This document shows positions 7,782 to 54,037 of a stretch of DNA of 64,000 nt, piece by piece. Where the stretch lies: assembly GCA_029547205.1 (NCBI GenBank), contig JAKPPT010000068.1:288014-352013 (forward strand), read 5' to 3'. The position numbers and the translations under genes were made by a program. Below the pieces are notes generated by a model. That model ran no database searches. It worked only from the letters and a program-made list of their open reading frames with translations, and was not told where the DNA came from. How positions within the stretch are numbered: the stretch's first letter is position 1; every line of letters starts with the position of its first letter. This DNA comes from Spirochaetota bacterium. GTDB taxonomy: Bacteria; Spirochaetota; Spirochaetia; Treponematales; UBA12059.

Positions 7782-9148
7782 TATCTTGTACTTTTCTACT
7801 ATACATATTGACTGTATCAGTTTTACTAAATGCTCAAACACAATCACAAGTCATTGCGGGCGTCTATAACGATACTCAGGTATCGCAACCTCAATCTGCA
7901 CCACAAAATGCACCCATGACTGTTGAGCCGCTTCGCTCATTCAAAGAAGAAGTAGGAACTGAAGTATCTCACCCTATAGTTTACCAGTCACTTTTTTCAA
8001 AGGATTTTCCTGTTGATGATCCGCTCTACCAAAGCTATCTTACTGCATATTCCAGCAAAGGCGGCATGGAATGGATTAACGCAATTTATAAGCGTGCGCT
8101 CCCATACGCGCAGTATATTCGTGAACGCATTTTCTACTATCAGCTCCCCGAAGAGTTATTTTTCCTTCCCTTTATTGAATCAGAATTCAATCCCATGGCT
8201 GTATCACGTTCTGGAGCGATGGGTTTATGGCAATTTATGAAGAACAGCATTGGAGGCTACAATATCCACATAAATGAGTGGGTTGATGAACGGAGGGATT
8301 TTATTAAAGCTACTGATGCTGCCTTAAAAAAACTACAGTGGAACTATTCCTACTTTGGTGACTGGCTTCTTGCACTGGGTGCCTACAATTGCGGTACAGG
8401 CGCTATGGATCGAGCTATAAAAAAAGCAGGCACAAAAGATTTCTGGGAATTAAAAAAACTAGGTGTATTACCCAAAGAAACCGCTCATTATATTCCTAAA
8501 CTGCTGGCGCTCATCACTGTTGCGACAAATTCCCGCCGGTTTGAGTTTGATCCCCCATGGAATCCCCTACAGCAATGGGTAAGCATACCGCTCCCATTTT
8601 CTATTGATATTACCATGCTTGCAGAAGCTTGCGGTATCAATGTTACCGTATTAAGACAGGGAAACCCTGAGTTAAAGTACAATGTGACACCCCCAGACAG
8701 CCACTATTCCTTAAAAGTTCCCGTAGAGTATGCAGAACAAGTAAAAAAAACCCTTGAACAGGCTCAGGGAAAGCTTATCAAGGTATACATGCATAAAGTG
8801 AACACGGGGGACACTCTATCAGCTATAGCACGGCACTATGAAGTTAGCATTAACATGATTGTACGACTAAATCCAGGCTTAAAACCGGACAGAATCCAGA
8901 TTGGTCAAGTTCTGGTAATACCAGCACTCAAAGACAAAAAACCTTTTGTTAATGAAAAACAAGCAGAATCGCCTGCTGATTTTTCCGGCACCTATGTTGT
9001 TAAGAAAGGGGACACTCTTTGGCAAATAGCCTTAGCCTTCAACGTGTCTCCAGAAACACTTGCAGAGAAAAATGGGCTTACCTTGAACTCAATTTTACGT
9101 GAAGGAATGGTCCTCAAAGTACCGATACTTAATACTGTACAGCCATGA
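7733..9148 (+). CDS. Membrane-bound lytic transglycosylase (MltD-like) with two LysM domains
   Basis: FFLPFIESEFNPMAVSRSGAMGLWQFM (SLT catalytic motif); LysM motifs NTGDTLSAIARHYEVS and KKGDTLWQIALAFNVS. Confidence 0.9.
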   Translation: MGMGRHFFWRQNTNKLVSCTFLLYILTVSVLLNAQTQSQVIAGVYNDTQVSQPQSAPQNAPMTVEPLRSFKEEVGTEVSHPIVYQSLFSKDFPVDDPLYQSYLTAYSSKGGMEWINAIYKRALPYAQYIRERIFYYQLPEELFFLPFIESEFNPMAVSRSGAMGLWQFMKNSIGGYNIHINEWVDERRDFIKATDAALKKLQWNYSYFGDWLLALGAYNCGTGAMDRAIKKAGTKDFWELKKLGVLPKETAHYIPKLLALITVATNSRRFEFDPPWNPLQQWVSIPLPFSIDITMLAEACGINVTVLRQGNPELKYNVTPPDSHYSLKVPVEYAEQVKKTLEQAQGKLIKVYMHKVNTGDTLSAIARHYEVSINMIVRLNPGLKPDRIQIGQVLVIPALKDKKPFVNEKQAESPADFSGTYVVKKGDTLWQIALAFNVSPETLAEKNGLTLNSILREGMVLKVPILNTVQP

Positions 9149-16649: not shown

Positions 16650-16980
16650 TGGAAGTATAATATACTTGAAAAGTATACTTTAATTCAATGGTATGTAGCG
16701 ATTCAAGGAGATACACTATTTACAGACCGACATACGATACTGCCTGCTAAGGTAGGTTGATAACCTGCTCATTCCGATATAGTCAAAAACCCTTAGCCTC
16801 GTTATTCACACATGTGGTCAGCCCGTTCCTCTGCACAAGGGGATTAATCGATATATCTCTCGTCTCGTACCATCCTTTAGCCCTACCTTATTACACACAT
16901 CACATGACATTGAAGAGTGTCCCTATAATTTCTACCTAAATAATTCTTACAATTAACTTTCAAGTACTTTCAAGAGTGTC

Positions 16981-17004
16981 CCTTTAGTAACCCCTTTAGT
17001 AACC
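16981..17004. repeat. Two tandem copies of the 12-mer CCTTTAGTAACC
   Basis: Direct reading: cctttagtaacc cctttagtaacc, adjoining a GAGTGTCCC motif. Confidence 0.8.
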
Positions 17005-18886: not shown

Positions 18887-19450
18887 TATCCTCCGAAGCT
18901 AACAGGATATGCCGGAAGTTCATATGAATCACTTACCGAATCTCATACAGTGTAGCACGAGCAATCGCTTTTAACCATTACTTACAGAAATATTGACCAG
19001 TTCTCCAAAAAAAATCCTTCATGTTTAGGGACAAAGGAAGAGTGTCCCTCCTATATTCCCAATGTATTATACCAAAAGAAGAACCTTATTTTTCCTGCAA
19101 TAGCATTGAATCGTAAGATTTTATGGCACAGAACAACCTTAGTTAAAATCAAATCAGCTTGTTAATTTCGGTCATGCACAGTTCAGATGAAACTGCTTTA
19201 CCTCAATCCTTTCGAACTGATCATAGAACCGAACCAACATCTTGCATAATTGCTCAATCAGCTAGAATTGCATTTTAATTCTTTAGCACAATAAAAAGAT
19301 AAAGCCTAGAAAACTTAAGAATAAAATAACCACTTTAGGCACTATTACTACCTTAAGGACAGGCACTGCTGTGGGGCAATTTACGTAACTATTCTAGTAG
19401 TATAACTAGCGCTGAATCCTTATATAAATTCCTAATTATAACTGTAAATA

Positions 19451-20560
19451 TCAATGCATTTCACTATCGGTACCTAATAGAAACAGTGTTATATCATCCT
19501 CAAAAACCGGATTTTCCATAAACTGAATAAGTTCAGTTAATATTGTATCAGCTATGGTATCGAGGGACAGACTTGAATTTTCAAGCAAGACATGCTTTAT
19601 GCCCTCGATACCGAACATTTTTTCATGTGCACCACGAGATTCGATTATTCCATCGGTAAAAAAACAAAATATATCTCCAGGATGGAATTCTTCAAGAGTG
19701 TCCCTATAGTTAAAATCATCCATTAGCCCGATGATAGGATTGCCTAAAGTTTTCATTTCTGTAAATGAGCCATCAACGTGCGCTATAAGCTGCCCAGGAT
19801 GACCGGCATTGCAATATTCAATCGAATATTTTTTAAAATCAAGTATACCATAAAAAGCTGTGACATAATGATTTGTAGTTATTACCTTTGAAAATTCCTC
19901 ATTAAGACTTCGGATTACTTTTGAAGGATGTGTATATTTGGTTTTCAAATAATCAAAGGTACTCTTTATCATCGCTGTTATAAAGGCTGGAGCAATTCCA
20001 TGACCTGAGACATCGCTAATCATAATGCCAAATCGATACTCATCGATTTGAAAAATATCAAAATAATCGCCTCCTACCATTGCCATCGGTATATAACGAT
20101 GCGTACATGAAAAATAGGATGTACCGGGATATGAACGTGGCAACATGCTTTTTTGCATTTCTACTGCAAGATTCATCTCGCGAATTGATTGTTTATTACG
20201 ACGTTCTAACCCATACAATGCTTCTTGAAACTTTATACGCTCATTTTTAATTATTTTTTTTGCCCGCCTATATGCTTTTTTAAAAGATTTAAGCTTTTCC
20301 TCTATAGGGCTATATAAAACTAATCTATCAGCTTCTGGAAATAATTGTTTTAAAAGAGTTTGCTCATGAAGATCTTTTTCATGGAGTGTCCCTATAGTAG
20401 TCTCATTGAAAATTTCATGCAAGGTCTTGTTTTTAAATTTTTCATAACAACTATTTGGTAAAACTGCTATTATTTGCTGCTCTTTATTTAAAGCAAAAAT
20501 ATATCCATGCAAAGATTGTAGCAATTTTTCAAGAGTGTCCCTTTCGATAAGTTTATCCAT
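19451..20560 (-). CDS. PP2C/SpoIIE-family serine phosphatase (RsbU-like)
   Basis: AMVGGDYFDIFQID...ISDVSGHGIAPAFITAMIK...DIFCFFTDGIIES. Confidence 0.87.
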   Translation of the reverse strand: MDKLIERDTLEKLLQSLHGYIFALNKEQQIIAVLPNSCYEKFKNKTLHEIFNETTIGTLHEKDLHEQTLLKQLFPEADRLVLYSPIEEKLKSFKKAYRRAKKIIKNERIKFQEALYGLERRNKQSIREMNLAVEMQKSMLPRSYPGTSYFSCTHRYIPMAMVGGDYFDIFQIDEYRFGIMISDVSGHGIAPAFITAMIKSTFDYLKTKYTHPSKVIRSLNEEFSKVITTNHYVTAFYGILDFKKYSIEYCNAGHPGQLIAHVDGSFTEMKTLGNPIIGLMDDFNYRDTLEEFHPGDIFCFFTDGIIESRGAHEKMFGIEGIKHVLLENSSLSLDTIADTILTELIQFMENPVFEDDITLFLLGTDSEMH

Positions 20561-20655: not shown

Positions 20656-20670
20656 ATGAGTGTCCCTCAT
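20656..20670. repeat. GAGTGTCCC motif in a perfect hairpin ATGAG-TGTCC-CTCAT
   Basis: Direct reading of atgagtgtccctcat. Confidence 0.75.
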
Positions 20671-20954: not shown

Positions 20955-21479
20955 CTATGTTATATATTTTTTATATTTTTCTATATTACGCTTATAAAAA
21001 TCATGAACCCAATCACTTATCCAAATGTTCATTACATCAAAAAGATTTATATAAAATGATAATCCTGACCATTTCCAATCTAATGGATTTTCTACTAACT
21101 CTGCTGAAACAGCGTTTTCGCTTATATAATTAAAACATCTTTCAAAATCAATTTCTTCATTGAGGATTTCGGAAAAATATCTATCACCCCATATATGTCC
21201 AGTTCGGCCAAAATGTTTGTTATACCGGATCGTAAAAGTCATAAGAAGTCGTTTCATAATGGTTGGCAATTCCATATCCAATGTTTTGATAATTAGATGA
21301 AAATGATTATCCATTATTGAAAAGTGTTCAATTTTAAAACCCATTTCTGCTTGTAGATCCATTAATATCCCCAGAAAAAGGTTTTTGCAGAAAGAACAGC
21401 TAAGACGAAACTCCTGATTGTTTATTCTAGCGGTAACATGATATGTTCCTCCTGGAATAAGTTTTCTAGGACTTCTCAT
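20955..21479 (-). CDS. Y1 (HUH) transposase, IS200-like / REP-associated tyrosine transposase (RAYT)-like
   Basis: PRKLIPGGTYHVTARINNQEF...IEHFSIMDNHFHLIIKT (HUH) ...TGHIWGDRYFSEIL; 174 aa, no IS ends seen. Confidence 0.88.
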   Translation of the reverse strand: MRSPRKLIPGGTYHVTARINNQEFRLSCSFCKNLFLGILMDLQAEMGFKIEHFSIMDNHFHLIIKTLDMELPTIMKRLLMTFTIRYNKHFGRTGHIWGDRYFSEILNEEIDFERCFNYISENAVSAELVENPLDWKWSGLSFYINLFDVMNIWISDWVHDFYKRNIEKYKKYIT

Positions 21480-21649: not shown

Positions 21650-21658
21650 GGGACACTC
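21650..21658 (-). repeat. Dispersed motif copy (GGGACACTC on +)
   Basis: catggggacactcctt, upstream of the Y1 transposase gene. Confidence 0.75.
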
Positions 21659-21792: not shown

Positions 21793-21802
21793 GGGACACT
21801 CT
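21793..21802 (-). repeat. Dispersed motif copy (GGGACACTCT on +)
   Basis: agtggggacactcttctt. Confidence 0.75.
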
Positions 21803-21913: not shown

Positions 21914-21930
21914 CAAGAGGGACACTCTTG
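21914..21930. repeat. Motif in a perfect hairpin CAAGAG-GGACA-CTCTTG
   Basis: Direct reading of caagagggacactcttg. Confidence 0.75.
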
Positions 21931-21996: not shown

Positions 21997-24900
21997 ATGT
22001 TTGAATCCGTAGATCCAAAAATAAATTTCCCAAAAATGGAAGAGGAAATCCTTAAATTTTGGGAAGAGCATAAAATTTTTCAACGTTCCATAAACGAGCG
22101 CGAAGGTTCTCCCGAATTTGTATTCTATGATGGACCACCCTTTGCTACGGGGCTGCCTCATTTTGGCCACTTTGTACCAGGCACGATAAAAGATAGCATC
22201 CCTCGTTATAAAACAATGAAAGGATTTAAAGTAGAACGCCGTTTTGGTTGGGATTGTCATGGTCTTCCGGTAGAGTATGAAATGGAAAAAGAACTCGGTA
22301 TCTCTGGGAAAAAACAAATTGAAGACTATGGCATTGCAAAATTTAACGAAGCTTGCCGTTCAATAGTATTGCGATATACGAAAGAGTGGCGTACAATTAT
22401 GACCCGAGCCGGGCGCTGGGTTGATTTTGATCATGATTATAAAACCATGGATCCAGATTACATGGAATCTATCTGGTGGGTCTTGAAGCAATTATGGGAT
22501 AAAAACCTGATTTATGAAGGCCACTACATACTTCCATATTGCCCCCGCTGCTCAACAGTACTCTCAAATCATGAACTTCAACTTGGTGGTTACAAAGATG
22601 TTCATGATCCTGCTATAACCGTCAGATTTAAGATTACTGCAGTTTCGCATGATAGTAAATCATCAAATACAAATACTTCGGGGACACTCTTGCTTGATAG
22701 TTCACTTGCTGATGGATCAACATACTTACTGGCATGGACTACAACACCATGGACGCTTCCATCAAACCTTGCACTTGCAGTAGGTCCCGAGATTGATTAT
22801 GTGCTTGTACAGGATGGGACTGAACGGTATATCCTGGCTGAATCACGTCTAACTGCTTACTACAAAGACGATGCTCTGCCTACGATTCTATCGAAGTTTA
22901 AAGGAAGTTCTCTTGAAGGTATTCAATATGAACCACTCTTCCCTTATTTTGCTGAATATACAAAAAATGGCGCATTCAAGGTACGAATAGCTGACTTCGT
23001 TACCACTGAAGATGGTACCGGTATAGTCCACATAGCTCCCGGCTTTGGCGAAGATGATTACAATGTACTTAAAGGTTCTGGTATTCCTATAGTGTGTCCC
23101 GTAGATGCTGAATGCCAATTTACAGCTGAAGTTCCTGATTACCAGGGAACATTTGTCAAAGACACTGACAAGTTAATAATAGAACGCCTTAAAAATGAAA
23201 AAAAATTAGTTAAGCGAGAACAATATTTGCATGCTTATCCACACTGCTGGCGCTGTTCCAGTCCTCTCATTTATCGTGCTGTATCCAGCTGGTTTGTGAA
23301 AATTGATCCTATTAAAGAAAAAATGCTAAAAGCAAATCAGAAAATCTATTGGATGCCAGCACATATTAAAAACGGACGTTTCGGTAAATGGTTAGAAAAT
23401 GCTCGTGATTGGGCGATAAGTCGCAATCGATACTGGGGCAACCCGCTCCCAATCTGGAAATGTGATGCCTGTGGTAAAACCGAATGCTTAGGCTCACGAG
23501 AAGAACTTACAAAAAAAACAGGCAAGAGTGTCCCCGATCTCCATAAGCACTTTGTCGATGAATATACCTGGGAATGTTCCTGTGGAGGGACAATGAAACG
23601 GATTCCAGAGGTACTCGATTGCTGGTTTGAATCAGGTTCAATGCCATATGCTCAGGTTCATTACCCATTTGAAAACAAAAAACATTTTGAAGAACATTTC
23701 CCAGCAGATTTCATTGCCGAAGGTCTCGACCAGACCCGTGGATGGTTTTATACATTAACAATAATCGCTGCAGCTCTATTTGATAAACCTGCTTTTAAAG
23801 CCTGCGTAGTCAATGGTCTTGTTTTAGCAAGCGATGGTAAAAAAATGAGCAAAAGCCTCAGAAATTATACTGATCCCATGAAAGTAATGCAGGAATTTGG
23901 TGCGGATGCACTGCGTCTTTTCCTCATGAACTCTGCAGTAACTCGTGCCGATGACCTTTGCTACTCTGATGACGGCGTTCGTGAGGTATTAAAAAATCTC
24001 ATTCTCCCACTGTGGAGTGCTTATAGCTTTTTTGTGACCTATATTAATCTCGATAGAGTGTCCCCGCCTCAAGCAAAACCGGAAGCTACTAATCCACTCG
24101 ACCGCTGGATACTTTCATTATGTGAAACAATGGTTAGTAATGTCACTGAAGCTTTAGAAGCATACGATATGCAAAAAGCAATAACTCCAATTATCAATTT
24201 TATTGATGCACTCAATAATTGGTTCATTCGTAGATCTCGCCGACGATTCTGGAGAAGCGAAAATGATTCGGATAAACTCGATGCATACGCAGCACTCTAC
24301 AGAGTGTTACTAAGGCTTATACACTGTCTTGCACCATTTGCTCCTTTTGTAACAGAAAAAATCTGGCAAAATATCCGCCCTGAAAATTCTGCAAAAAGCA
24401 TACATCTCTCTTCATGGCCTCAGGTTGAAGCATCTTTTATCGATGCAGAACTTGAAGCTAAAATGGCTTATGTGCGACAAGCAGTGGCTATGGGTAGATC
24501 GCTCCGCTACCAGCACAACATCAAGATTCGACAGCCGCTCAAAGAAGTTCAACTGGTAACAAAAAACGCTCAAGAAAAAGCCAGCCTCATAGAAATGATG
24601 GAAATCATTAAGGAAGAACTTAATGTTAAGGAGGCTATATTTAGAGAAGATGAAGAACAACTGGTTGAGTACAGTGCAAAAGCTAATTTTAGAGTTCTTG
24701 GGAAAGAATTAGGTAAAGATATGAATACTGCAGCAGCAATAATCGAAAAATTGGGCAGCAAAGAAATTATGAGCTTATTAGAAGGGAATACTCTTGTCAT
24801 TGATGTTGCAGGGAAGAGTGTCCCTCTTACCACAGAAAAGGTTATTATTAACCGCATTGAAAAAGCCAATCTCAAAGTTATTAATGAAGGAAGTCTTACT

Positions 24901-25185: not shown

Positions 25186-25243
25186 GTACTGATTTCCAAT
25201 AGGGACACTCTAGGTTTTTCTGGGTTTTTTAATCTTTTACACA

Positions 25244-26292: not shown

Positions 26293-27302
26293 GTTGTCAT
26301 CCTTTCACTTTCACAGAGAAAGCGCATATATTCTTTAAAATCATTAAGCGGTATCCACCGAAACCCGAGTGCAGTCCCTTTAAAATAGTTTTTAAGTTCC
26401 AGAATAGACATTCCAGCAAGCAATTCTAGTGGCAAATAGCTTCCTGGACGTTTTTCTGATTCTTTTAGCTGAGATTCGAGATATGTAAAAACCTTACTAG
26501 AGTGTCCCCGATGTTCCCGATGTTTCCCTTGTTCCCCTTCCCATTGTCCGCTATCTCCCAACTGTCCCTTTTGATGCTCCAATCTCTCATTATCCTGGAA
26601 TTGCTGAGTATAGGGACACTCTTTGATGCAAACATCACAGCCATAGAGATGATTCCCTCGATGCAATTTGAAATGTTCTGGCATGCCACCTGTACTCATC
26701 CAGTACTGCAGACATAAGTGTTTAGAAAAACCATTGTCAAGCGCATGAGTCGGACAAGCATCAATACATGCTGAACATGATCCACATTGTGAATTGTTTA
26801 TATAATTTTTTGAATCTGTTTCGTTTACGAGTGTCTGAAACAAAGCATCTATTTTCGGGAAAAGCATTAATCCTATCAGTACAGCAGAACCGTAGAGCGG
26901 ATTTACCAGCAAACCCGATTTTCCAATCCAGCCAAGATTTGCGAGTACGGCACTTTCTTTTTCCGGTAATTTTGAATTTACCGATATTCGAATATCACTA
27001 CGGTGTAAACCATATTCTGCACGTATTTTCGCTGCCAATTCTTGCAATATCCTGGTTAAGAAATGGTAATAATTATATGCAGCAAATGATCCAACTGTTA
27101 CTATTTTTGTATGCGTAGAGCTTTCAGTTCCTGAGATAAGCCTATAAGGCAAGAGCACAGCTATACCTGTCACCTCTTTCTGTACATGCTCAGCTATTGG
27201 TATTTCTTTTGTACTGGTAAAGATATGATCTATTGCTCTATCAGACAGGATATTCCATACGTGTATCCCTTTGCAGTCAAAAAACTCCGTGAATGATATC
27301 AT
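26289..27302 (-). CDS. queG: Epoxyqueuosine reductase-like 4Fe-4S protein (QueG family)
   Basis: LANLGWIGKSGLLVNPLYGSAVLIG, CGSCSACIDACPTHAL, GCDVCIKECPYTQ. Confidence 0.8.
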   Translation of the reverse strand: MISFTEFFDCKGIHVWNILSDRAIDHIFTSTKEIPIAEHVQKEVTGIAVLLPYRLISGTESSTHTKIVTVGSFAAYNYYHFLTRILQELAAKIRAEYGLHRSDIRISVNSKLPEKESAVLANLGWIGKSGLLVNPLYGSAVLIGLMLFPKIDALFQTLVNETDSKNYINNSQCGSCSACIDACPTHALDNGFSKHLCLQYWMSTGGMPEHFKLHRGNHLYGCDVCIKECPYTQQFQDNERLEHQKGQLGDSGQWEGEQGKHREHRGHSSKVFTYLESQLKESEKRPGSYLPLELLAGMSILELKNYFKGTALGFRWIPLNDFKEYMRFLCESERMTT

Positions 27303-30056: not shown

Positions 30057-31700
30057 TCAGTAAATTCCTGTCACTTCAATATCGCTCCAGAAGCTCGTAT
30101 AGGATTGAATTTCATGACTATACTCTTCATTAATATCGATGAAAGACCATTCTTTTTCAGAACGCGATGTCTTACCATCAGGAAGCAATCGAGATACTTT
30201 ATAACTATCGAGCGAAAAAGCAATATGGCGATCATCCAACGACCCAAAATATTTGTCTGTACTCGAAAATGGATTAGTCAGTTCAAATGTCAGAGCATTC
30301 ATGTATAAAGCTGGGTCAACCGGCACCCATCCTACTCCATATATAAAAAATTCACACCAATAGTGCTCATGTGCTTTTTTATTGTCATCAATTATAATTC
30401 CCGCAACAGGTCGTGCAGGTATCCCTAAGCTTCGCAATGCTGCCGTATACAGCAAGGCGAGGGCTCGTACACTGCCACTCTTTGCGCGAAGTGCCGCAAC
30501 AGGAGTGTCCCCTTTTTTGGACTGCACTGTATATGTTTTTCTGAGTGCATTTAAAACAAGCAATGCACGACGATATGGATTTTTTTCATTCTGAACACTG
30601 TTTCTTGCAAAGTCTTGAATACTTGCATCATCAGCAGGAACAAGATCGCTACTTGCAGTATACTTAGTATACAGTGATGGCAACCCAGTTTTAGGAATTT
30701 GTATTTCATCTGGGTTTACTTCTACTGTATAACTGATACTTTGAACGAGATATCTTTGAACAATGGTATACTCAACAACTGTTTCTGGATTCTGAATTAA
30801 AAAACATGTTACCTGATTATCAGCATAGAGTGGCTGAGTGCTTGATTCCAATAATTTAATATTTCGCTGAGTATCTGTAGAAACAGGCATTTTGCGCCAA
30901 ATATACAGCAATCCACCAGGTTTTGCCTTTATTTTTGAAATACTGGTAAAGGATTCTAAGGCATATGTGCGTTTTGTAATAAATCGTTTTTTAGCAATAT
31001 TTTGTAATTGTAAAAATTGTGGTTTGCTCTGTCCCTGTAATGTTTTTACCCAAATAGGTCCTGAAACTGCACCATCAGGAATACGCATCTGTATTTCTTT
31101 ATCTGACCAGGAGGTATAGTCTTCATCACTATCTGCGACAATAGATTCACTGAGTCCTGTTCCATCAATTGCACTTGCTACAGTCTGGGCAGTAAAAATT
31201 ACCTCTGACGTCCCCCGATTGATGCCGAAGTTATATCCTTTAATAATCAGTAAGCCCCCTGTAACTGCATCCTTTACATCAATACTCACAATAACAGGTC
31301 CAACAGCCTGTTCGGAATTCTCATTGGGAAACCCCGGAAGTTTATCTTTACATGCTATTATTTTACCGTTTGAATAGTACCCTGAACTCGTGCGAACCTT
31401 GATTATTGGCGTTTTATCAAGCAAGGGTACCGTTAAACGGATACTATTGTCTTTCCATTCTAGATATGCAGTTCTCTGTACTGGAATACCATTGAACTCG
31501 ACTCGAGCATCACCAGAAAGCTGACCAAAATTGCTGCCATAAATTGTTATTGTATCCCCTGTGCCTGCGCTGATCGGAAGTATTGTTTCTATTACAGGCT
31601 TTCGAATAAAAAAGGAACGAACGCCAATACCAATGAATATCAAGACGAGAATACTAATGCCGATTAAGAATAGGTTTCGCTTTACCGATGCTTGTTGCAT
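30057..31700 (-). CDS. IPT/TIG-domain protein with transglutaminase-like domain
   Basis: ILPISAGTGDTITIYGSNFG TIG motifs; SGSVRALALLYTAALRSLGIPARPVAG...HEHYWCEFFIYGVGWVPVDP. Confidence 0.82.
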   Translation of the reverse strand: MQQASVKRNLFLIGISILVLIFIGIGVRSFFIRKPVIETILPISAGTGDTITIYGSNFGQLSGDARVEFNGIPVQRTAYLEWKDNSIRLTVPLLDKTPIIKVRTSSGYYSNGKIIACKDKLPGFPNENSEQAVGPVIVSIDVKDAVTGGLLIIKGYNFGINRGTSEVIFTAQTVASAIDGTGLSESIVADSDEDYTSWSDKEIQMRIPDGAVSGPIWVKTLQGQSKPQFLQLQNIAKKRFITKRTYALESFTSISKIKAKPGGLLYIWRKMPVSTDTQRNIKLLESSTQPLYADNQVTCFLIQNPETVVEYTIVQRYLVQSISYTVEVNPDEIQIPKTGLPSLYTKYTASSDLVPADDASIQDFARNSVQNEKNPYRRALLVLNALRKTYTVQSKKGDTPVAALRAKSGSVRALALLYTAALRSLGIPARPVAGIIIDDNKKAHEHYWCEFFIYGVGWVPVDPALYMNALTFELTNPFSSTDKYFGSLDDRHIAFSLDSYKVSRLLPDGKTSRSEKEWSFIDINEEYSHEIQSYTSFWSDIEVTGIY

Positions 31701-34885: not shown

Positions 34886-34904
34886 AGAAGAGGGACACTC
34901 TTCT
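34886..34904. repeat. Intergenic motif in a 7-bp-stem hairpin AGAAGAG-GGACA-CTCTTCT
   Basis: Direct reading of agaagagggacactcttct. Confidence 0.75.
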
Positions 34905-39440: not shown

Positions 39441-40718
39441 TTGAGTAATGCGGAAATACTATATAAAAAGCTTTTACTGAAATATCAACATACTCTTGCC
39501 TATGCAAAAAAGTCTAAACGACTTAACCGCAGGCTCTACAACAACTATCTAAAATTAAAACAATACCACAATAAGACGCTCAAAAAAGCAGAAAATCAAG
39601 CTCGTAATTTATTACAGCAAACCATTAAAGAAAAGTATCCCCTTATTCTCGATCACAGACATAGAATTATTCATGTTGATAAAAACCTGCTCGATACAAT
39701 CGAAATGACTCAAATAGAATTTGCATCATCATTCTATATAGATTTACTTTTTGAAAAATATCTTCCTAATGATTTTACTAATCTAGGCGAAATACTCATT
39801 CCAGAATTTCATTTCCCCATTTTACTAGATATAGAACAGCCTACAGATGATAGGGAGAACAATGAAGATGGAATTTCAGTGCATCCCTTTCTTCATTTTG
39901 GTATATCAGGCAAGCGAGTTTACAATAAGCAGAAAAAGCTCTTTATTTATTTCCTCTCTATGAGGGATATCAGCCCGGAAATAGAACTTTCGTACTACCA
40001 AAAGACCGATAAGCTTATCGTGTCATTATCGCAAACCAATCTGCAATTGCAACAGGCACAAAAGACCATAGAAGCACAAAAAATCATGCTTATTTCGCTT
40101 GTATGTTCTTTAGTAGAAGAACACAACAGAGAGACTTCAATTCATCTCCAGCACATACGACTGATTACATCCTACATAACTGAAGAATGTCTCAGGCTTA
40201 ACATTGTAAAAAAGGCTCCATACCAGATAGAACAATATCTCAAGGATATTGCGTATACTTCAATTCTGCATGATATCGGCAAAGTACGCATTCCTAAAGA
40301 TCTCATTGAAAAGACCCAAGGTTTGACTTTTGCAGAGTATGCTAAAATTCAGGGACACACAACTGCCGGAGCTGCCTATATCAAACGAATCATGAATCTT
40401 TTTCAAAATGACCCTTCTTTTTCCCAGTATATTGATTTTTTAATGATCCCCTATACTATCTGTTTATATCACCATGAACGGTGGGATGGAAAAGGTTACC
40501 CCAAAGGACTTAAAGGTTCAGAAATTCCGCTCCCAGCCCGCATTGTTAGTATTGCCGATACCTATGATGCAATGCGAGCAACACGATCTTACAACATACC
40601 GATGAGTCATGCAGAAGCTGTACGCGAAATAAAAAAATGCAGTGGCACTCAGTTTGATCCAATTTTAGTAAAAGTTTTTCTCAATATCGAAAAAAAACTT
40701 GAAGAAATTGAATACTAG
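39441..40718 (+). CDS. HD-GYP domain protein
   Basis: LHDIGKVRIPKDLIEK...HHERWDGKGYPKGLKGSEIPLPARIVSIADTYDAM; TTG start. Confidence 0.87.
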   Translation: MSNAEILYKKLLLKYQHTLAYAKKSKRLNRRLYNNYLKLKQYHNKTLKKAENQARNLLQQTIKEKYPLILDHRHRIIHVDKNLLDTIEMTQIEFASSFYIDLLFEKYLPNDFTNLGEILIPEFHFPILLDIEQPTDDRENNEDGISVHPFLHFGISGKRVYNKQKKLFIYFLSMRDISPEIELSYYQKTDKLIVSLSQTNLQLQQAQKTIEAQKIMLISLVCSLVEEHNRETSIHLQHIRLITSYITEECLRLNIVKKAPYQIEQYLKDIAYTSILHDIGKVRIPKDLIEKTQGLTFAEYAKIQGHTTAGAAYIKRIMNLFQNDPSFSQYIDFLMIPYTICLYHHERWDGKGYPKGLKGSEIPLPARIVSIADTYDAMRATRSYNIPMSHAEAVREIKKCSGTQFDPILVKVFLNIEKKLEEIEY

Positions 40719-43837: not shown

Positions 43838-44770
43838 ATGCAAATCTCAACTCAACTTCTTGAAACGATATATAATCGGGCTCGAACAGAGACGAAAGCT
43901 GGCAGTGTAGCCACCTACATACCAGAACTTGCTAAGGCCAATCCCGATGATTTTGGTCTTGCAGTATTCGATGCAACGGGGACACTCTATACTTGCGGAT
44001 TTTCATCAAAATTTTTTACAATTCAAAGCATTTCAAAAGCCTTTGCACTGCTCTATACACTGGAAACCTTTGGGCACGAAGCTGTTTTTTCACGTGTTGG
44101 CAAAGAACCAACAGGTGATCCTTTTAATTCTATAATACGACTCGAAACTAGTTCGCAACGAAAACCATTCAATCCATTCATTAATGCTGGAGCAATTGTT
44201 ATTTCGAGCATGTTACCTGGTACATCTCCACATGAAAAAATAGAAAATTTGTGTGACTTTTTAGCACACATGATCGATACCAATACAGGTACTTTACAAT
44301 ACAATACTGATGTGTTCCTTTCAGAAAAGGCTACCGGTGCTAGAAATAGAGCAATAGCGTGGTTTCTTAAAGAGCTCAAACTCATTGATGGTGATGTTGA
44401 AGAAGTACTTGATACCTATTTTATGCAGTGTTCAATTATGCTTTCTGCTGAAGCACTGGCAAAAATTGGTCTCATACTTGCATTTGATGGCATTGATCCG
44501 GTAAGCAGGCAACGATTCTTTTCAGAAAACTCTGCACACATATGTAAAAGCCTCATGATAACCTGTGGTTTATATGATGGCTCTGGAGAGTTTGCTGTAG
44601 AAACCGGTATCCCTGCAAAAAGCGGCGTTGGCGGAGGCATTATCGCTGCCGTGCGGGATAGAATGGGCATTGGTGTTTATGGTCCTGCATTAGATTCTCG
44701 AGGAAACTCAGCAGCTGGACTTACAGCCTTAAAGCTCCTTTCGGAAGCGCTTGATTTACGCGTACTGTAG
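43838..44770 (+). CDS. glsA: Glutaminase
   Basis: TIQSISKAFALLYTLE; RKPFNPFINAGAIVISSML; PAKSGVGGGIIAAVRDRMGIGVYGPALDSRGNSAAG. Confidence 0.95.
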   Translation: MQISTQLLETIYNRARTETKAGSVATYIPELAKANPDDFGLAVFDATGTLYTCGFSSKFFTIQSISKAFALLYTLETFGHEAVFSRVGKEPTGDPFNSIIRLETSSQRKPFNPFINAGAIVISSMLPGTSPHEKIENLCDFLAHMIDTNTGTLQYNTDVFLSEKATGARNRAIAWFLKELKLIDGDVEEVLDTYFMQCSIMLSAEALAKIGLILAFDGIDPVSRQRFFSENSAHICKSLMITCGLYDGSGEFAVETGIPAKSGVGGGIIAAVRDRMGIGVYGPALDSRGNSAAGLTALKLLSEALDLRVL

Positions 44771-44787: not shown

Positions 44788-46986
44788 CTATAGTTTCTTT
44801 AGTAATATTGCTGTAACATCATCAGCCATTTTTGCACCACTCGTAAAGAACCGCCACTCCTGAATGATGTAATCGAGCATTCCCTGCGCACTCCCTTGAG
44901 GAGCAGATGACAGGGCCGATAGTATTCCTTCCTGACCAAACTCCTGACGGTCCACGTTTCTTGCTTCAGAAATTCCATCGGTATATACAAGAATTACATC
45001 GCCTGGCTGAACCTTAAAACGGATTGATTTATAAAGTGATTCTATACCCTTCCGACCCATTGGTAACCCGCGATATTCGTCATTTCCTGGTGGTCTGAGT
45101 TCCAGTGCATATGGTTTTTTAGAACTCTTATACACTATTTCGGTATGAGCAGCATTAGAATACTCTATGCTGCCATCGTCAGATAATCGGAGCAGTGCAG
45201 CTGTGAGGTAATGTTCCACACTCTGCAGCTCATCACAGAGTTCTTTATTAACAATCGACATTACTTTTCCTAATGGCAAGTTCCTGTATTTGAGAAAGTT
45301 TCTATAAAAAATTGAACGAGCAAGAACTGTGATCAAGCCCGAGGCTATTCCATGTCCGGAAACATCTGCTACAACAATGCCAGCTAATGCATTACTAATT
45401 GTATAAAAATCATAAAAGTCTCCCGATACACCGCTTGCTGGAATAAAAACAAAGGCAGCTTCCCATGCTGATGTTCGAGGAGCTTCCGACGGGAAAAATC
45501 CTATTTGCACTTGCGTTGCAATACGTAAATCCATTTGAGCTTCTTGATGGGCTCTTTCAAGCTTTTGTGCTGTTTCTGTTAAATTCTTATTAAAAACATC
45601 CTGTTCTTTTAATTTTTGACTTAATTCTTCTGTTCGCTTGTTCACCTTTTTCTCAAGAACCATATTGGTCAATTCGACGTGTCGATAAACAAAGAAAAAT
45701 TGAGCAGCAAGCAATGTAGCTGAACCAAAAACCAAAATCAAAAAACCAATTTGAGCCATCATCTCAAATTGATTTCCTCCAAATGCAATGATGTTCAAAA
45801 AGCTCGTTGCAATAACAACAGCCATACCCTGTAAAAATCTCACCATATCAACACGTTGAAAACTTCTCACTAGCAGAAACAGCACACTTTGTTTTTTTTC
45901 TGTTGTAATGCGTTTATAATGTCGGAGTGCATGGCGATATGGAACATACAAATCACGGTACAATACATAAATAGCAGGAATAAACCCAACTATACTCCAT
46001 ATAAAATTGATTAATTCAGTGAATACAAATAATTGAACTACAAAGAAAATTCCAGCAATACCTGCTAAAACTAATGCAAACTTTGAAAGTCTTTTATGAA
46101 TAGCAACATCAATAAACGCTACAAACATGGGTAACAATATATAGAGTGTCCCCGTTCGTATTGCATCAGTTATACGTGTATCTAAAATGACATCATGGAT
46201 TACATATGTTCTTGAAAGGAGATGAATACCTAAAATAAACGATGCAAGTGCAAAATACAGATAGGCTCTGTTTTGACGGCGGAGAAAATAAAAAATTAAA
46301 TGATAAATTCCAAAAAAGAGATACACACCTATAAAGGCAAGCTGTATATATTGTGTACGTTTGCGGAGTAACGACAAGTAATCACCAATAACGTATCCCT
46401 TTCGCGCTGTAAGTCCTGTTTTTTCACTGAGCGGATCGCCTTCAATCATAAATGCAAGCAGATTTGTTCCTGATTTAATCAATCGCCGATCAATATTGAT
46501 AAGAGCACCTCGTACATTACGTTCTACCCCCCGAGGTAGAGCATCATAACCACGTGATGATTCGTTATGAATTAGTGTTCCATTAAAATAAACTTGCCAA
46601 TTAACCCCAATTTGTTCAAGAAAGAGTGTTACACCACCTTTTTCTGTATAGTCTTCTTCATAAATCGTAAAAGGAATAACAATAGTAAAACGCTGAGACT
46701 TCATTTTTGCATTAGAGAATAGTGGTGGCTTTTTAATTCCAGGCAAACCAACATCACGAATGATCACAGATCGTGAACCCTTGTTCCCCAGCACAGAAAT
46801 CCATGAACTGTCATTAAGTTTAGGTGGGAATAATATCCAGGAAGGTTCAAAACCTGGTCTTATAAACAAAGCGTATTCAGTTAAATCGATTTCTTGTGCA
46901 CAGACTGAAACGACACTGCTTACAATAAAGAAAAGTAATAAAAACAAATGTATTTTTTTACTATTAAGAATCTTCACTGCGTGCAC
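44788..46986 (-). CDS. 7TM-DISM-like receptor with C-terminal SpoIIE phosphatase
   Basis: Extracellular sensor region, multiple TMs, ASGVSGDFYDFYTI...VVADVSGHGIASGLITVLA...VILVYTDGISEA. Confidence 0.85.
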   Translation of the reverse strand: MHAVKILNSKKIHLFLLLFFIVSSVVSVCAQEIDLTEYALFIRPGFEPSWILFPPKLNDSSWISVLGNKGSRSVIIRDVGLPGIKKPPLFSNAKMKSQRFTIVIPFTIYEEDYTEKGGVTLFLEQIGVNWQVYFNGTLIHNESSRGYDALPRGVERNVRGALINIDRRLIKSGTNLLAFMIEGDPLSEKTGLTARKGYVIGDYLSLLRKRTQYIQLAFIGVYLFFGIYHLIFYFLRRQNRAYLYFALASFILGIHLLSRTYVIHDVILDTRITDAIRTGTLYILLPMFVAFIDVAIHKRLSKFALVLAGIAGIFFVVQLFVFTELINFIWSIVGFIPAIYVLYRDLYVPYRHALRHYKRITTEKKQSVLFLLVRSFQRVDMVRFLQGMAVVIATSFLNIIAFGGNQFEMMAQIGFLILVFGSATLLAAQFFFVYRHVELTNMVLEKKVNKRTEELSQKLKEQDVFNKNLTETAQKLERAHQEAQMDLRIATQVQIGFFPSEAPRTSAWEAAFVFIPASGVSGDFYDFYTISNALAGIVVADVSGHGIASGLITVLARSIFYRNFLKYRNLPLGKVMSIVNKELCDELQSVEHYLTAALLRLSDDGSIEYSNAAHTEIVYKSSKKPYALELRPPGNDEYRGLPMGRKGIESLYKSIRFKVQPGDVILVYTDGISEARNVDRQEFGQEGILSALSSAPQGSAQGMLDYIIQEWRFFTSGAKMADDVTAILLKKL

Positions 46987-47795: not shown

Positions 47796-50700
47796 TTACT
47801 TCCCGCAACCCTCACAGCCAACATTGCAATCTGCACAGGTCAGCGGTATTCCATCATGTTGATTATCATCAGAATTATCATCGATGAGGCTTTCAACATT
47901 GCCACCTCGATAGCGAAGCACATTAACCATAAAGATATTGAGTTTGTTCACAATGCTTGGTGGCAATTGATTTCCATCAACTTCTACTGATATCACAGGA
48001 TAATTCCTGTCTCGAGCCCACGGTGTAAAAAGTCCTTCAATTACACGTCCAATTAAACATGCAAATGGAGAAATGTTTACAATTCCAGAGTAGCCTTCTT
48101 CCATTGCTGTTGCTGCAACACCCGTTGATACAGCAATTTCCGAATTGAGTTCATGGTTGACAAAGTTCTTTGCCGTATTTGCCATAATGTGGTGCATATT
48201 CTCCGGTGCATGCGGTATAAGCCCTGTTTCTCCTAAAATCTTCTTAACATCCTTTTCTACCTGATGTTTCCACCATTCTTCAAGTTTAAGCCTTATATAC
48301 TTGCGCATTGGAACACTAAATAACCGCTTCCACCATGAAGTCAATTTTATCTCTTTTTTAAGTGCGTATTCTCGAACAAAATCGAGATAATGAATCCATT
48401 CACCGATACCTGACACCTTGACGACAATTCCTTTTGCGCTCATTAAATCAGTGAGCTCTCCAATTGCAAAATCATCGCGTCGAACATAGATTTCTCCAAC
48501 AACGAGCACACGGGGACACTCTTCCAATGTACGTTTAAGCGGTATCTTTTTTACTTCCTGTGCTATTCGTTTTAATTCAGATTTGAGCACTTTTGGATCT
48601 TTCTCTATTTTTGCCATCATTTCATACCAGGACTTGTTATATGCCTCGAGTGCTTCTTCCGGTTTTTCTGCAGTGGCTTTGAGCACTGTTTGAATATCTT
48701 TCATGTAGTCGGATACCACGAGACCACGCCACATATCTTTAGCAAAGTTTGGTCCAAGTTCGGTGTATGAGTTATCAGCTGATAGCGTAAATACAACGAC
48801 ATTTTCCAATTTGAGATCCCGGAAGAGATTTTCGTAATACACAAAATACTGACCGGTACGGCAAGGACCAGTAGTTATAGGGACAAAGAGCAGGTAAAGC
48901 TCATCTTTCCTGTACTGTGGAGATGAAAAAAACTGCAATGCACTACCTAACACGAGGTGACTTGGAACACATTCTTTACCGGATGCATGAGCACGGGCAA
49001 CCTGAATCGTTTTATTGGTTGCTACTGGTAATGCTACCGCATTTAAACCGATACCTCGCAAAGTTGCTGCCATAAATTCTGTGGAAACATTTCCCATATT
49101 TGACAGGAGGATTTTTACCCTTGGATTGTTCTTTACCGGAACGCTTTCACCGGTAATCCTGTTAATAACTCTAAGGCCTTCCGGTCCTGTCTGCATAAAC
49201 TTCCAGCCATTGTCATACCGTTCCATGCCAAGATCATTCTTTTTGGAACGATAACCATCGATAATGTCCAGGAAGGCCTCAACACGGGTATCAATACCGG
49301 CATCTGCTGAGTGTGAATCGAGTTCCAGCACGAGGAATGGCTTCTGTCCCATTATCCACTTTAAGTAATGGAGCATAAAGGAGTCCGGCGCACAGGAAAA
49401 GTTTGTAATAAATGTTACATAAATATTATCATAATCTTTTAGAAACTCTGCCGCTTTCATGTCCTGCTGACCATAGAACCAGTACATATTCGGGAAAATT
49501 TCTTCTGATTCAAATGGCAAAATATCAAACGGTATGACAGAGTAACCGCGCGTAGTAAATTTTCTTGGAATACCCATGTTTGCTTCTGGTGTAAATGCAT
49601 TATACGGGCGGCCTAGAATTGCAATGACAGGGCGCTCTGCTTTTTTTGCTTCTTCAATTGCTTCAATACCGAGCTTGCGGGCAGCAGAAAAGTATTCCCG
49701 CTGTTTTTGCAATGCTTTAGTAAAAGCACGCTCAATTTCATCAGATGGTATATTGAGTTTCTCTCCGCATTTCAGGAAATGCTCTAACGCTTTTTTATCA
49801 CCGTACTTAAAGCTGACAATCACCGGCAAAAATTTTTCATCAGGAATATCAGGGAATGCTTTTTGTATATAGTATGGGAAACTTTGTGTAATCGGGCAGA
49901 AATTTGCATGTACATCATCTTCGTAGCTCTGCATGTCTCTAAAATGAGGTACAAAAATATAATCTGCGCCTTTATCGATACAGTCCTGTACTGCACCATG
50001 GGCAATTTCTGCTGGGAAACAGTAGGTACTTTCTGCTCGAGCAACCCCCTCGTGGACAACATCGGAAGAAAGGAACGTCTTAATGCCAAGTTCATGGAAG
50101 AACCATGCATAGAGTGGATACAGAGTATGCACCGAAAACGCTCTTGGAATCCCTACAATATAATCACGCTTTTGTCTAAAGGTTGATGGCTGGGGTGCAT
50201 ATTCATTAAAGAGTAACTGCTGACGCTTTTCCACATAATCGAGAACTGGCACATCTTTAATTGCTTTGCGCATGTTCGTATACTTGGAGCAGCGGCCGCC
50301 AAACATATACGAGTGACCATTAACTTTCAAGATTTGAATAGGACAGTAATTATCACAGGATTTACAGGTAAATACTCGCTCATATTCGATTTCTCGGTTA
50401 ATAATTTCTTCGAGATCGAATTGTCCAGCTTTGAGAAGCCCTTCCTGATGCTTTCGTTTAGCGAGCAATGCCACACCAAAACAACCCATAAGTTCAGGAG
50501 ATGGCGGCACAAGAATATCTTTTTCAAGCATCATCGCGAAAGCAAGGGGAACAGCAATATTCTTTGCCACACCTCCCTGCAGGAACACTTTGCCTCCGAT
50601 AGTCCTATTTCCCACAACACGGTTAAGATAGTTTGCGACAATCGAAACAACAATACCAGCTGTTATATTTTCCTTACTTGCCCCCTGCTGCACAGCTTTG

Positions 50701-52133
50701 CGTATATCAGAATTGATAAAAGCTGAACAATGTTCTCCAAATTTAAGCGGAGCATCTGCCTTAAGCGCTATTGGACCGATATCTTTTGCACTATGAATTG
50801 AAAGATCCCCTGCTGCTGATTCTTCCAGGAACGATCCTGTACCAGCAGAACATGCTTCATTCATTGCATAATCTATCGGAACACCATTTTTTAAAAGCAC
50901 GTATTTTGCATCCTGACCGCCAATTTCAAAAATAGTTTCAACCTCTTTATCAAAATAGGTAGTTCCAACCGAGTGAGCGATGATCTCATTATAGACACCA
51001 GATGTCTCGAGAAATACACCTAAAATCTCGCGAGAAGAACCAGTCGTCGCTGCTAATTTTATATTTACTTTTGTATCACCAGTATCCTGCTTTACTTTTT
51101 CAAGAATTACTTTGAAACATTCCTTTGTTGCTTTTACAGGATCACCGTGTGTACGTCCATAATGACTTGCTACAATCTCATCAGTTTCTGCATCAATGAG
51201 ACATGCTTTTGTTGTTGTCGATCCACCATCGAGTCCCAAAATATACTCTCGATTTTTCTGAACCTTACCTTCGGGTTTATCAAAATACTTTACCCGATTC
51301 TGCCACTTTTTAAGGTCCTGCAATTTATCAAATTTTATCTGAATTGGTTTGAGAATCTTATCAAAGGCTGGTGCCGGAGTTCCCGATTCACGGGCTAATA
51401 CTGCAGCTCCAAATGCCTCAAAGACCGCTGCTATATCTGGAACAATAAAATTTATTGCTGGAGCTTTTTCTTTAATAAATCGGAGAATATGTTTATTTAA
51501 TGTTACACCACCCGTAAGCACAACCGTACCTTCATTGATTTTGGCTCGCTTGAGAAAATCAATAACCTTGGTTGCCATTACATCAGAAAGTGATAAAACA
51601 ATATCTTCTTTAGTTGCTTCACGCTTATTGAGCCTATGTGTACAATCGCTCTTCATAAACACCGAGCATCTGCTCGAAAGCGAAAGCAAGCGAGCTGTTT
51701 CCGGAACCTTTTCTATATCCGCCAGAGTCATATCCATGCGACCGAGCTGCTGCTTAAGAAATTCACCAGTACCGGAAGCACATTTATTGCCAGAAAAGTT
51801 ATTAATGATTTTTCCATTGCTGTCCAGGCGGTATACAACCATATCTTCACCGCCCATACTGACAATTGCATTGGCTTTAAGCCCTAATGTTTTCATTGCA
51901 GCTTCTATACAGAGCGGTTCAACTGTACCAGCTGCATTAAATAAGAATCGCCCTTCATTACCCGTCACTAAAAGCGGTATCCCTTCGGGAATTTTTGTCT
52001 GTTTTAACAAATTATTTAAGGCGAAAGAAAAATCCCCTTCATGCGGGGTCATACCCTTCCAGATGATAGTATCACCATCCAACAAAACCATTTTTAAGCT
52101 AGAAGAACCTATATTAATTCCCAATGTCTTCAT
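47796..52133 (-). CDS. Giant acyl-CoA dehydratase activase (BadF/BadG/BcrA/BcrD ATPase family, DUF2229-like C-terminus)
   Basis: Two activase modules (GINIGSSSLKMVLLDG; LGLDGGSTTTKACLID), SAGTGSFLEESA, C-terminal CADCNVGCEGCGK. Confidence 0.9.
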   Translation of the reverse strand: MKTLGINIGSSSLKMVLLDGDTIIWKGMTPHEGDFSFALNNLLKQTKIPEGIPLLVTGNEGRFLFNAAGTVEPLCIEAAMKTLGLKANAIVSMGGEDMVVYRLDSNGKIINNFSGNKCASGTGEFLKQQLGRMDMTLADIEKVPETARLLSLSSRCSVFMKSDCTHRLNKREATKEDIVLSLSDVMATKVIDFLKRAKINEGTVVLTGGVTLNKHILRFIKEKAPAINFIVPDIAAVFEAFGAAVLARESGTPAPAFDKILKPIQIKFDKLQDLKKWQNRVKYFDKPEGKVQKNREYILGLDGGSTTTKACLIDAETDEIVASHYGRTHGDPVKATKECFKVILEKVKQDTGDTKVNIKLAATTGSSREILGVFLETSGVYNEIIAHSVGTTYFDKEVETIFEIGGQDAKYVLLKNGVPIDYAMNEACSAGTGSFLEESAAGDLSIHSAKDIGPIALKADAPLKFGEHCSAFINSDIRKAVQQGASKENITAGIVVSIVANYLNRVVGNRTIGGKVFLQGGVAKNIAVPLAFAMMLEKDILVPPSPELMGCFGVALLAKRKHQEGLLKAGQFDLEEIINREIEYERVFTCKSCDNYCPIQILKVNGHSYMFGGRCSKYTNMRKAIKDVPVLDYVEKRQQLLFNEYAPQPSTFRQKRDYIVGIPRAFSVHTLYPLYAWFFHELGIKTFLSSDVVHEGVARAESTYCFPAEIAHGAVQDCIDKGADYIFVPHFRDMQSYEDDVHANFCPITQSFPYYIQKAFPDIPDEKFLPVIVSFKYGDKKALEHFLKCGEKLNIPSDEIERAFTKALQKQREYFSAARKLGIEAIEEAKKAERPVIAILGRPYNAFTPEANMGIPRKFTTRGYSVIPFDILPFESEEIFPNMYWFYGQQDMKAAEFLKDYDNIYVTFITNFSCAPDSFMLHYLKWIMGQKPFLVLELDSHSADAGIDTRVEAFLDIIDGYRSKKNDLGMERYDNGWKFMQTGPEGLRVINRITGESVPVKNNPRVKILLSNMGNVSTEFMAATLRGIGLNAVALPVATNKTIQVARAHASGKECVPSHLVLGSALQFFSSPQYRKDELYLLFVPITTGPCRTGQYFVYYENLFRDLKLENVVVFTLSADNSYTELGPNFAKDMWRGLVVSDYMKDIQTVLKATAEKPEEALEAYNKSWYEMMAKIEKDPKVLKSELKRIAQEVKKIPLKRTLEECPRVLVVGEIYVRRDDFAIGELTDLMSAKGIVVKVSGIGEWIHYLDFVREYALKKEIKLTSWWKRLFSVPMRKYIRLKLEEWWKHQVEKDVKKILGETGLIPHAPENMHHIMANTAKNFVNHELNSEIAVSTGVAATAMEEGYSGIVNISPFACLIGRVIEGLFTPWARDRNYPVISVEVDGNQLPPSIVNKLNIFMVNVLRYRGGNVESLIDDNSDDNQHDGIPLTCADCNVGCEGCGK

Positions 52134-53224: not shown

Positions 53225-54037
53225 ATGAACAAGAAGTGGCTTAAGTCTTTGTTAATCTACTTAGTACTAGCAGTAACGCTACCGCAGCTGTCTGCTCAGC
53301 AGCCATGGAGAATATATTCCCTTTTTTCATACGATGCTTATGAAAGTGAAGGTATACTGACCATTGACGAAAGCATCTCAATACCCCTCATAAACAATTT
53401 TGTTATATCGACTGGTGTTGCATGGAAAGGTACACTTATTGACCCTTTTTTCACCGATCCAGCAAAAGCTGAGGCACGACTCGGAATTATCTATATTCAG
53501 CCTTCATGGAGCATGTATTTTGAGCTCTATGGAGGTTCAATATGGGTGCCTCAAACCATGGGAACACCACTGTGGGAAGCTTTTGTACAGACAACACTTA
53601 TTGAAGCTGCAGTCAATTGGGAAACAGATTTGCTCTATTTTGGATTACGTGAGCGTATACTCTTTAATACTATTTCTACAACTTCAATTACCAATTTTCT
53701 ATTCTTCTGGACACCCCAACGATTTTTCAAACTGAGCCTTGGAATGAGTATTGGCATCGAAAATGATGTTCCAACACTTCCTGGCATTCGTGCTGAGTTC
53801 ATAGCACCAATTATTAAGAGTGTCCCTGAACTATTCCGTGCTGGACTTGGTATTACCTATGAACGCTTTTTCGATGACGCAACACTGACAGCGGGAAACA
53901 CAATTACAATTAAAGCAATTCTTGCATCTGCACCACTTGCAGCTCTCGATATAAAAGCTGGTATAGCATGGAATTTTGGTGATAAAGCAGTATATCCGCT
54001 CCAGCTTGAAATGCTATCAGCAATAGTGCTCCAGTAA
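53225..54037 (+). CDS. Hypothetical secreted, possibly beta-barrel protein
   Basis: Signal peptide (…LPQLSAQQP) and alternating amphipathic strands. Confidence 0.5.
   Translation: MNKKWLKSLLIYLVLAVTLPQLSAQQPWRIYSLFSYDAYESEGILTIDESISIPLINNFVISTGVAWKGTLIDPFFTDPAKAEARLGIIYIQPSWSMYFELYGGSIWVPQTMGTPLWEAFVQTTLIEAAVNWETDLLYFGLRERILFNTISTTSITNFLFFWTPQRFFKLSLGMSIGIENDVPTLPGIRAEFIAPIIKSVPELFRAGLGITYERFFDDATLTAGNTITIKAILASAPLAALDIKAGIAWNFGDKAVYPLQLEMLSAIVLQ

Follow-up and report, generated by a model that had tools for sequence, protein, structure and literature searches.

A linear sequence motif repeated around a Y1 transposase-like gene in a Spirochaetota genome

A linear motif in place of a hairpin

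The stretch of DNA analyzed here (64,000 nucleotides from the genome of a Spirochaetota bacterium; hereafter "the window") contains short sequences in which two complementary arms enclose a TGTCC/GGACA loop. The initial annotation regarded the stems as variable with pairing kept and the 5-nt loop as constant, and took this as a sign of structure recognition as in Y1 transposase substrates. The four hairpins given as examples were found as written, at positions 34886–34904 (7-bp arms), 21914–21930 (6-bp arms), 20656–20670 and, inside ileS, 24814–24828 (5-bp arms each). The loop is indeed constant, but merely as a portion of an invariant 9-nt motif, GAGTGTCCC.

The stems were evaluated across 54 genomic copies with their flanks, using right flanks shuffled among the copies as the null. 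Stems of at least 3 bp around the TGTCC loop occurred in 11 of the 54 copies, exactly the shuffled mean (11.0; P = 1.0), and the remaining 43 copies had stems shorter than 3 bp. Taken as a whole, the set does not show varying stems with preserved pairing. Stems of at least 5 bp were found in 5 of the 54 copies versus 2.57 after shuffling (P = 0.046). This excess was confined to the 25 kb on either side of the Y1 gene described below (4 versus 1.8, P = 0.023), and beyond 25 kb there was none (1 versus 0.8 expected). The initial annotation had named covariation of the arms across all genomic copies as the check on its reading, and none above background was observed in the 54-copy alignment. The score of the named structure was 0.134 compared with 0.113 ± 0.016 for shuffled alignments (48 of 500 shuffles as high), three of six controls with slid partners outscored it (0.142, 0.193, and 0.164; higher scores came from slides of −1, +1, or +3 columns), and 55.3% versus 53.7% of the cells were paired. 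RNAalifold found no consensus structure in the same alignment.

One pair is already fixed within GAGTGTCCC, which also provides one side of each of the two pairs that follow, so the motif alone starts a stem. The hairpins are the product of this fixed GAG...C core and a favorable downstream TC in a minority of copies; they are mostly chance, incidental extensions of the motif at a few copies. The four perfect examples, the slight excess of longer stems within 25 kb and the requirement of known TnpA_REP enzymes for hairpins (PMC8266576) speak for the copies being structure-dependent substrates like REPs or the ends of IS200/IS605 elements. Weighed against the 43 copies with less than 3 bp, a covariation not above controls and the absence of conserved arms in sister species (see below), we consider this reading highly improbable, and hairpin recognition is unsupported.

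The real feature is a linear motif of about ten letters, (A)GAGTGTCCC, repeated copies of which surround a transposase-like gene. The window contains 28 copies of GAGTGTCCC and the 2.65 Mb genome (G000) contains 59, compared with five of the reversed control. The 8-mer TGTCCCTC is likewise enriched in the window (8 copies versus 0.92 ± 0.94 in shuffles), and AGAGTGTCCC is present 42 times in this genome versus 0–7 times per genome in 60 relatives. The copies peak at 16–27 kb of the window, around a gene for a 174-aa REP-type tyrosine (Y1, HUH) transposase at 20955–21479 on the minus strand. Within 10 kb of this gene lie 20 of the 59 copies, with 39 elsewhere in the genome, which corresponds to a ~66-fold enrichment (Poisson P ~ 1e-29). 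The two copies nearest to the gene are inverted relative to each other, with 20658–20666 (+), part of the hairpin at 20656–20670, on its 3′ side and 21650–21658 (−) on its 5′ side. Intergenic copies are found at 16915–16923, 16974–16982, and 19040–19048 (all +) and at 21793–21801, 21919–21927, and 34892–34900 (all −), the last two within the hairpins at 21914 and 34886, and another copy is located directly downstream of ileS (25202–25210, −).

The other 19 of the 28 window copies are situated in ORFs. A SpoIIE-like gene contains three (19696–19704, 20384–20392, and 20533–20541, all +) and ileS contains four (22681–22689 on the minus strand, in a variable loop of greater length in this genome, and 23526–23534, 24056–24064, and 24816–24824 on the plus strand, the last in the hairpin at 24814). 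Two copies each occur in a class II tRNA-synthetase-like gene (PF00152; 25791–25799 and 25890–25898, both +) and in a gene for a 4Fe-4S protein, QueG-like by context (26500–26508, +, and 26613–26621, −), and one in a transglutaminase/TIG-domain gene (30503–30511, +). Farther away, copies are found in the ORFs 1861–3126 (2706–2714, −), 7733–9148 (8808–8816 and 9009–9017, both −), 43838–44770 (43979–43987, −), 44788–46986 (46144–46152, +), 47796–52133 (48513–48521, −), and 53225–54037 (53818–53826, +). Over this 10-kb range from the Y1 gene, the motif rate is 0.67 per kb in genes versus 3.05 per kb between genes. As the motif is present in genes, albeit at a lower rate, genes resist it without excluding it.

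Y1 proteins and their putative cognate motifs

The only domain found in the protein encoded at the center of the cloud was Y1_Tnp (Pfam PF01797, E = 2.9e-12). Its sequence contains a predicted HUH motif (N58-H59-F60-H61) and a putative catalytic tyrosine (Y118), and H59, H61, Y118, and N122 are invariant among 30 relatives. Peptide patterns gave no close relatives of the protein; an alignment query did recover relatives, and those with names are Spirochaetota. The protein scored 79.1 bits with the NCBIfam model REP_Tyr_transpos (NF047646), whose curated cut-off is 80. The best PDB match of its AlphaFold model (pLDDT 89.4) was TnpA_REP (4er8; E = 2.1e-10, probability 1.00, TM 0.71/0.75). At the class 2 Y motif (Y---NP, W[EQ]) the window protein has YISENA and WG, and its relatives mostly have Y---NP with WG. 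The window protein is a relative of RAYT/TnpA_REP. RAYT genes are widespread, single-copy genes of unknown function and, to our knowledge, the spread of REPs has never been reproduced experimentally. The connection to a Y1 transposase made in the initial annotation was thus correct, since a Y1_Tnp gene lies amid the motif cloud and the cloud in relatives depends on such a gene.

The genome contains five Y1 genes, which are divergent paralogues. According to k-mer counts within 10 kb of each gene, four of them are surrounded by distinct clouds, namely of GAGTGTCCC, GGTCTGTCCC, AAACCTGGCACC, and ACACCTGGTACC, and no clear cloud was detected among the k-mers within 10 kb of the fifth (contig C132). 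GAGTGTCCC and GGTCTGTCCC go with sister proteins and have TGTCCC in common, while their 5′ halves differ. The AAACCTGGCACC and ACACCTGGTACC clouds are dense and of a different motif type. The AAACCTGGCACC cloud comprises 56 copies within 10 kb of its Y1 gene (G000:C82, ~78436–78765; L082, L083). The ACACCTGGTACC cloud has 23 copies within 10 kb of its gene (G000:C45, ~40146–40481; L074–L076) and more copies 12–22 kb away. Both of these clouds consist partly of short tandem arrays.

The surroundings of 40 Y1 genes from related Spirochaetota were screened in stretches of at most 20 kb, with a cloud defined as a top 9-mer score above 25. A cloud with a motif of the (T/C)GTCCC type or a related one surrounded the Y1 gene at 24 of these 40 loci (e.g., AGCTCTGTCCC, AGGTCTGTCCC, ACCTCYGTCCC, GTGTCTGTCCC, and GGTTGTCCC). 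The GTCCC end was constant nearly always and the 5′ half was variable. Two further loci scoring above 25 (L165 and L166) were left out of the 24, as GGCGGCGTG there resembles protein-coding repeats, and at 14 of the 40 loci a strong cloud was absent. Control stretches without a Y1 gene scored at most 18.1, except for a CRISPR array and two stretches at a locus with Y1 remnants. This array (G000:C63:247757–249199, locus L071; repeat GTTAGAAATGATTGACCTGTAAAAAGGGATTACGAC, ~17 units) is located ~40 kb before the window. In the relatives, motif density drops with distance from the Y1 gene, and many Y1 genes have a copy a short way upstream, frequently no more than 150 bp away.

Conservation, dependence on the Y1 gene and gain of copies

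Conservation and dependence on the gene were assessed at loci of relatives that carry the sister motifs AGCTCTGTCCC and AGGTCTGTCCC and not GAGTGTCCC itself; from the shared anatomy of the clouds, we infer that the results carry over to GAGTGTCCC. Four Y1 loci were collinear between sister species at 72–83% identity. Motif copies at these loci were intact in the sister species in 15/16, 17/18, 6/8, and 9/9 cases (47 of 51 over the four pairs), compared with 27, 16, 12–14, and 7% of control 9-mers. In a fifth pair (89% identity), two of three copies were intact versus 45% of the controls. Across 122 aligned copies from five sister-species pairs, identity was 0.87–0.98 over the 12-nt AGCTCTGTCCCY and 0.55–0.84 on either side. 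The flanks were thus at background, and the potential stem arms were not conserved.

An empty site was found in genome G017, a sister to G014 and G008, where the L163/L131 locus lies on one contig and is continuous through the position that the Y1 gene would occupy, with the gene absent. Of 14 copies in G014 that were alignable in both other genomes, G008, in which the Y1 gene is present, retained nine and G017 only one (discordant copies 8 to 0, P = 0.008). Overall similarity to G014 was 0.850 for G017 and 0.840 for G008, so divergence was equal. A second empty site occurs in another genus at the L152 locus. There, G013 lacks the Y1 gene and contains no copies in 20 kb, compared with 17 copies in G007 and 4 copies in 14.9 kb in G016, which both possess the gene; eight of the 17 copies in G007 form a local tandem array. 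This array (L152:6509–6754), close to the Y1 gene and absent from G013, consists of eight GGTCTGTCC copies at a spacing of mostly 29 bp (CCGCGGGGTCTGTCCCCCGG units).

At the L161 locus, only Y1 remnants of 46 residues (G008:C73, L326) and 27 residues (G017:C260, L318) are present, yet most copies were kept; therefore, the dependence on the Y1 gene is not immediate. Such retention is expected if decay is slow or if a different Y1 enzyme that shares the motif is active. The cloud in G008 and G017 is still dense and may be in decay since the gene was lost. At the L150 locus, where alignment at the motif positions was poor, G013 had two copies kept and three lost, and G016 three kept and two lost. 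All three alignable copies were kept at the L160 locus in G017, where the region is split between contigs, with a Y1 fragment at the edge of one of them.

One boundary of the Y1-bearing extra segment at L163 coincides precisely with the end of a motif copy, between TGTCCC and CGCATCTC (L163:10329–10340 versus G017:C351:4847). The same boundary was seen in G008, and the second boundary showed no clear coincidence with a motif. Judging from this junction, TGTCCC may be a cleavage end.

The copies that occur at a low level throughout the genome outside the cloud would fit a host chromosomal motif, serving replication, segregation or DNA uptake, that lies near the Y1 gene by coincidence. Such a motif would, however, hardly differ between the Y1 genes of one genome, be scarce in the genomes of relatives or be absent from orthologous loci without Y1, and we regard a coincidence of this kind as barely credible.

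Copies gained relative to G017 were mostly ungapped replacements that started from sequences with 2–6 mismatches. The chance of a gain was 0.15 with two starting mismatches, 0.027 with three, and 0.006 with four, a roughly five-fold drop per mismatch. Many gains in genes were synonymous or altered one residue (e.g., WGDLAL to WGDRAL). An example of a synonymous gain is the change from TACGCCCTCTCC to TATGCTCTGTCC (TAC GCC CTC TCC to TAT GCT CTG TCC), in which YALS was kept. In a polarized case, ACGACTCCATCCCCG became ACAGCTCTGTCCCCG in G014 alone, with five of eight bases changed and near-unchanged flanks. In the window itself, the ileS copies starting at 23526, 24056, and 24816 replace the residues of relatives (at 23526, KSVPD in place of, e.g., TRPDD), with no indel in conserved stretches and, at 24056, none relative to most relatives. 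Over nine loci, 140 perfect copies were counted compared with about 57–59 copies with one mismatch and 13 with two.

Copies might also arise when a mobile, REP-like unit of very small size inserts, and both the transposase gene at the center of the cloud and the multicopy state of Y1 genes in some genomes would agree with this. In alignable cases, however, copies that differed between sister species did so mostly by substitution without a change in length (17 cases versus 5 with a gap), and the ileS copies sit in conserved regions without any insertion. We therefore deem short insertions very unlikely. The motif as a short insertion was rejected on the basis of the ungapped alignments.

Proposed activity of the Y1 enzyme and relation to known systems

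The motif observed here is linear, gene-specific, and linked to a Y1 gene; it is local and conserved, and its copies are gained in place. The in-place appearance of such words, even inside essential genes, is not accounted for by standard transposition. Based on the sequence data, it is likely that the Y1 transposase encoded at 20955–21479 has GAGTGTCCC as its cognate site, recognized in linear and not in hairpin form, and that such words are made or kept in its vicinity. The Y1 protein would bind and cut the motif, reading the variable 5′ half and the mostly constant TGTCCC half as single-stranded DNA. It would act preferentially near its own gene, which could reflect a cis preference of the newly made protein. 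Near-matching sequences within ~10–30 kb would then become the motif and stay the motif, through enzyme-driven local conversion, selection for binding sites, or both.

Selection alone is a serious possibility, although short of probable. The copies would be Y1 binding sites that benefit the cell or the element, for example by anchoring or titrating a nuclease near its gene or by autoregulation, and would arise by point mutation followed by selection. The strong conservation per copy, the many synonymous or mild gains in genes, the location of a copy no more than 150 bp in front of many Y1 genes and the roughly five-fold fall in gain per mismatch, as stepwise mutation would give, are all consistent with this. 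It would also mean, however, that about 20 sites over 20 kb, many of them in unrelated genes, each needed an advantage of their own, and stepwise mutation would have difficulty in producing gains from 4–6 mismatches over a single species divergence.

Somewhat more tentatively, the Y1 enzyme itself may write the motif onto near-matching DNA near its gene without any benefit to the host, either by cleavage and rejoining of single strands or by short-patch conversion from another copy. The decay of the cloud with distance, its presence only where a Y1 gene has been, the excess of perfect copies over those with one or two mismatches, and multi-nucleotide changes in place with near-unchanged flanks, as from ACGACTCCATCCCCG to ACAGCTCTGTCCCCG, point in this direction. 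No Y1 enzyme is known to do so, however, flanking homology for conversion is absent, and selection on point mutations could produce the same pattern. That a single-strand nuclease both writes and keeps its own recognition word in neighboring DNA, essential genes included, as an insertion-free motif drive, is a rather speculative idea that we consider unlikely on balance.

Whichever route applies, the predicted cognate site invites comparison with REPs. These palindromes lie outside genes and carry a GT[AG]G foot (Nunvar 2010, PMC2817692; Bertels and Rainey 2011, PMC3116915; Corneloup 2021, PMC8266576), and their next-neighbor spacing beyond 200 bp in P. fluorescens SBW25 does not depart from random (PMC2817692, PMC3116915, PMC8266576). 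The system described here resembles REP/REPIN-RAYT systems in its HUH/Y1 protein of the TnpA_REP fold, its low copy number, and the own cognate repeat of each enzyme. It differs from canonical REPs by the absence of the GT[AG]G foot (no fixed GTAG or GTGG in the 54 aligned copies) and of a palindromic hairpin. Its copies are also not extragenic and dispersed, with 19 of 28 window copies in ORFs and 20 of the 59 copies in the genome no farther than 10 kb from the gene. Lacking a GTAG foot and a stem, and being often intragenic and local, the motif is not a REP.

The motif resembles the repeats of TIRtrons (TIRYT; Di Nocera 2013, PMC3733652; subclass 2.1 of Quentin 2018, PMC6006769). TIRtrons are described as Y1 genes flanked by inverted repeats with the consensus GGGGWSAS, and the repeats as long, adjacent to the gene and arranged in dimers or clusters, with some families also elsewhere in the genome (PMC3733652, PMC6006769). 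The reverse complements of motifs found here, GGGGACAC and GGGGACAG, fit GGGGWSAS, GGGGACAC only at copies that are followed by C. The unit here is, in contrast, a solo linear 9–12-mer that is spread over 10–30 kb, mostly intragenic in the window, and gained in place, and the 174-aa window protein is devoid of the C-terminal HTH domain of subclass 2.1 proteins (median 238 aa). The available text of both TIRtron papers contains no description of solo coding copies, locality, or an origin in place (PMC3733652, PMC6006769), and the main text of the 2018 survey (PMC6006769) makes no mention of Spirochaetes. More generally, the literature searched, whose coverage ended short of subscription journals and bioRxiv, yielded no account of linear motif clouds surrounding Y1 genes.

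With IS200/IS605 elements such as IS608 and ISDra2, the modeled protein appears to share the catalytic fold (PDB matches 2xm3, 2vjv, and others). Unlike in these elements, no subterminal, hairpin-bounded element was identified here and the motifs themselves are not element ends. Furthermore, in place of multiple near-identical copies, the genome has five paralogous, divergent Y1 genes. DNA uptake sequences are short linear motifs in coding and non-coding DNA that are gained by substitution and thought to be spread by a biased process. They offer an analogy only, as they occur genome-wide, whereas each cloud has a single gene, a few hundred bases long, at its center. A Y1 system with a short linear site of this cloud type would provide a countable readout of the natural activity of the enzyme and make it testable whether Y1 enzymes edit DNA locally. 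It would also mean that codon choices in genes such as ileS are shaped by a neighboring mobile-type gene.

Tens of Y1 genes per genome, in contrast to the single divergent copies described here, occur in some Spirochaetota, as in G044 with 28 and G059 with 20–21 matches, and the genomes named BOBG01 and JAISMB01 are likewise multicopy. The Y1 genes of these four genomes may represent mobile forms of the same family.
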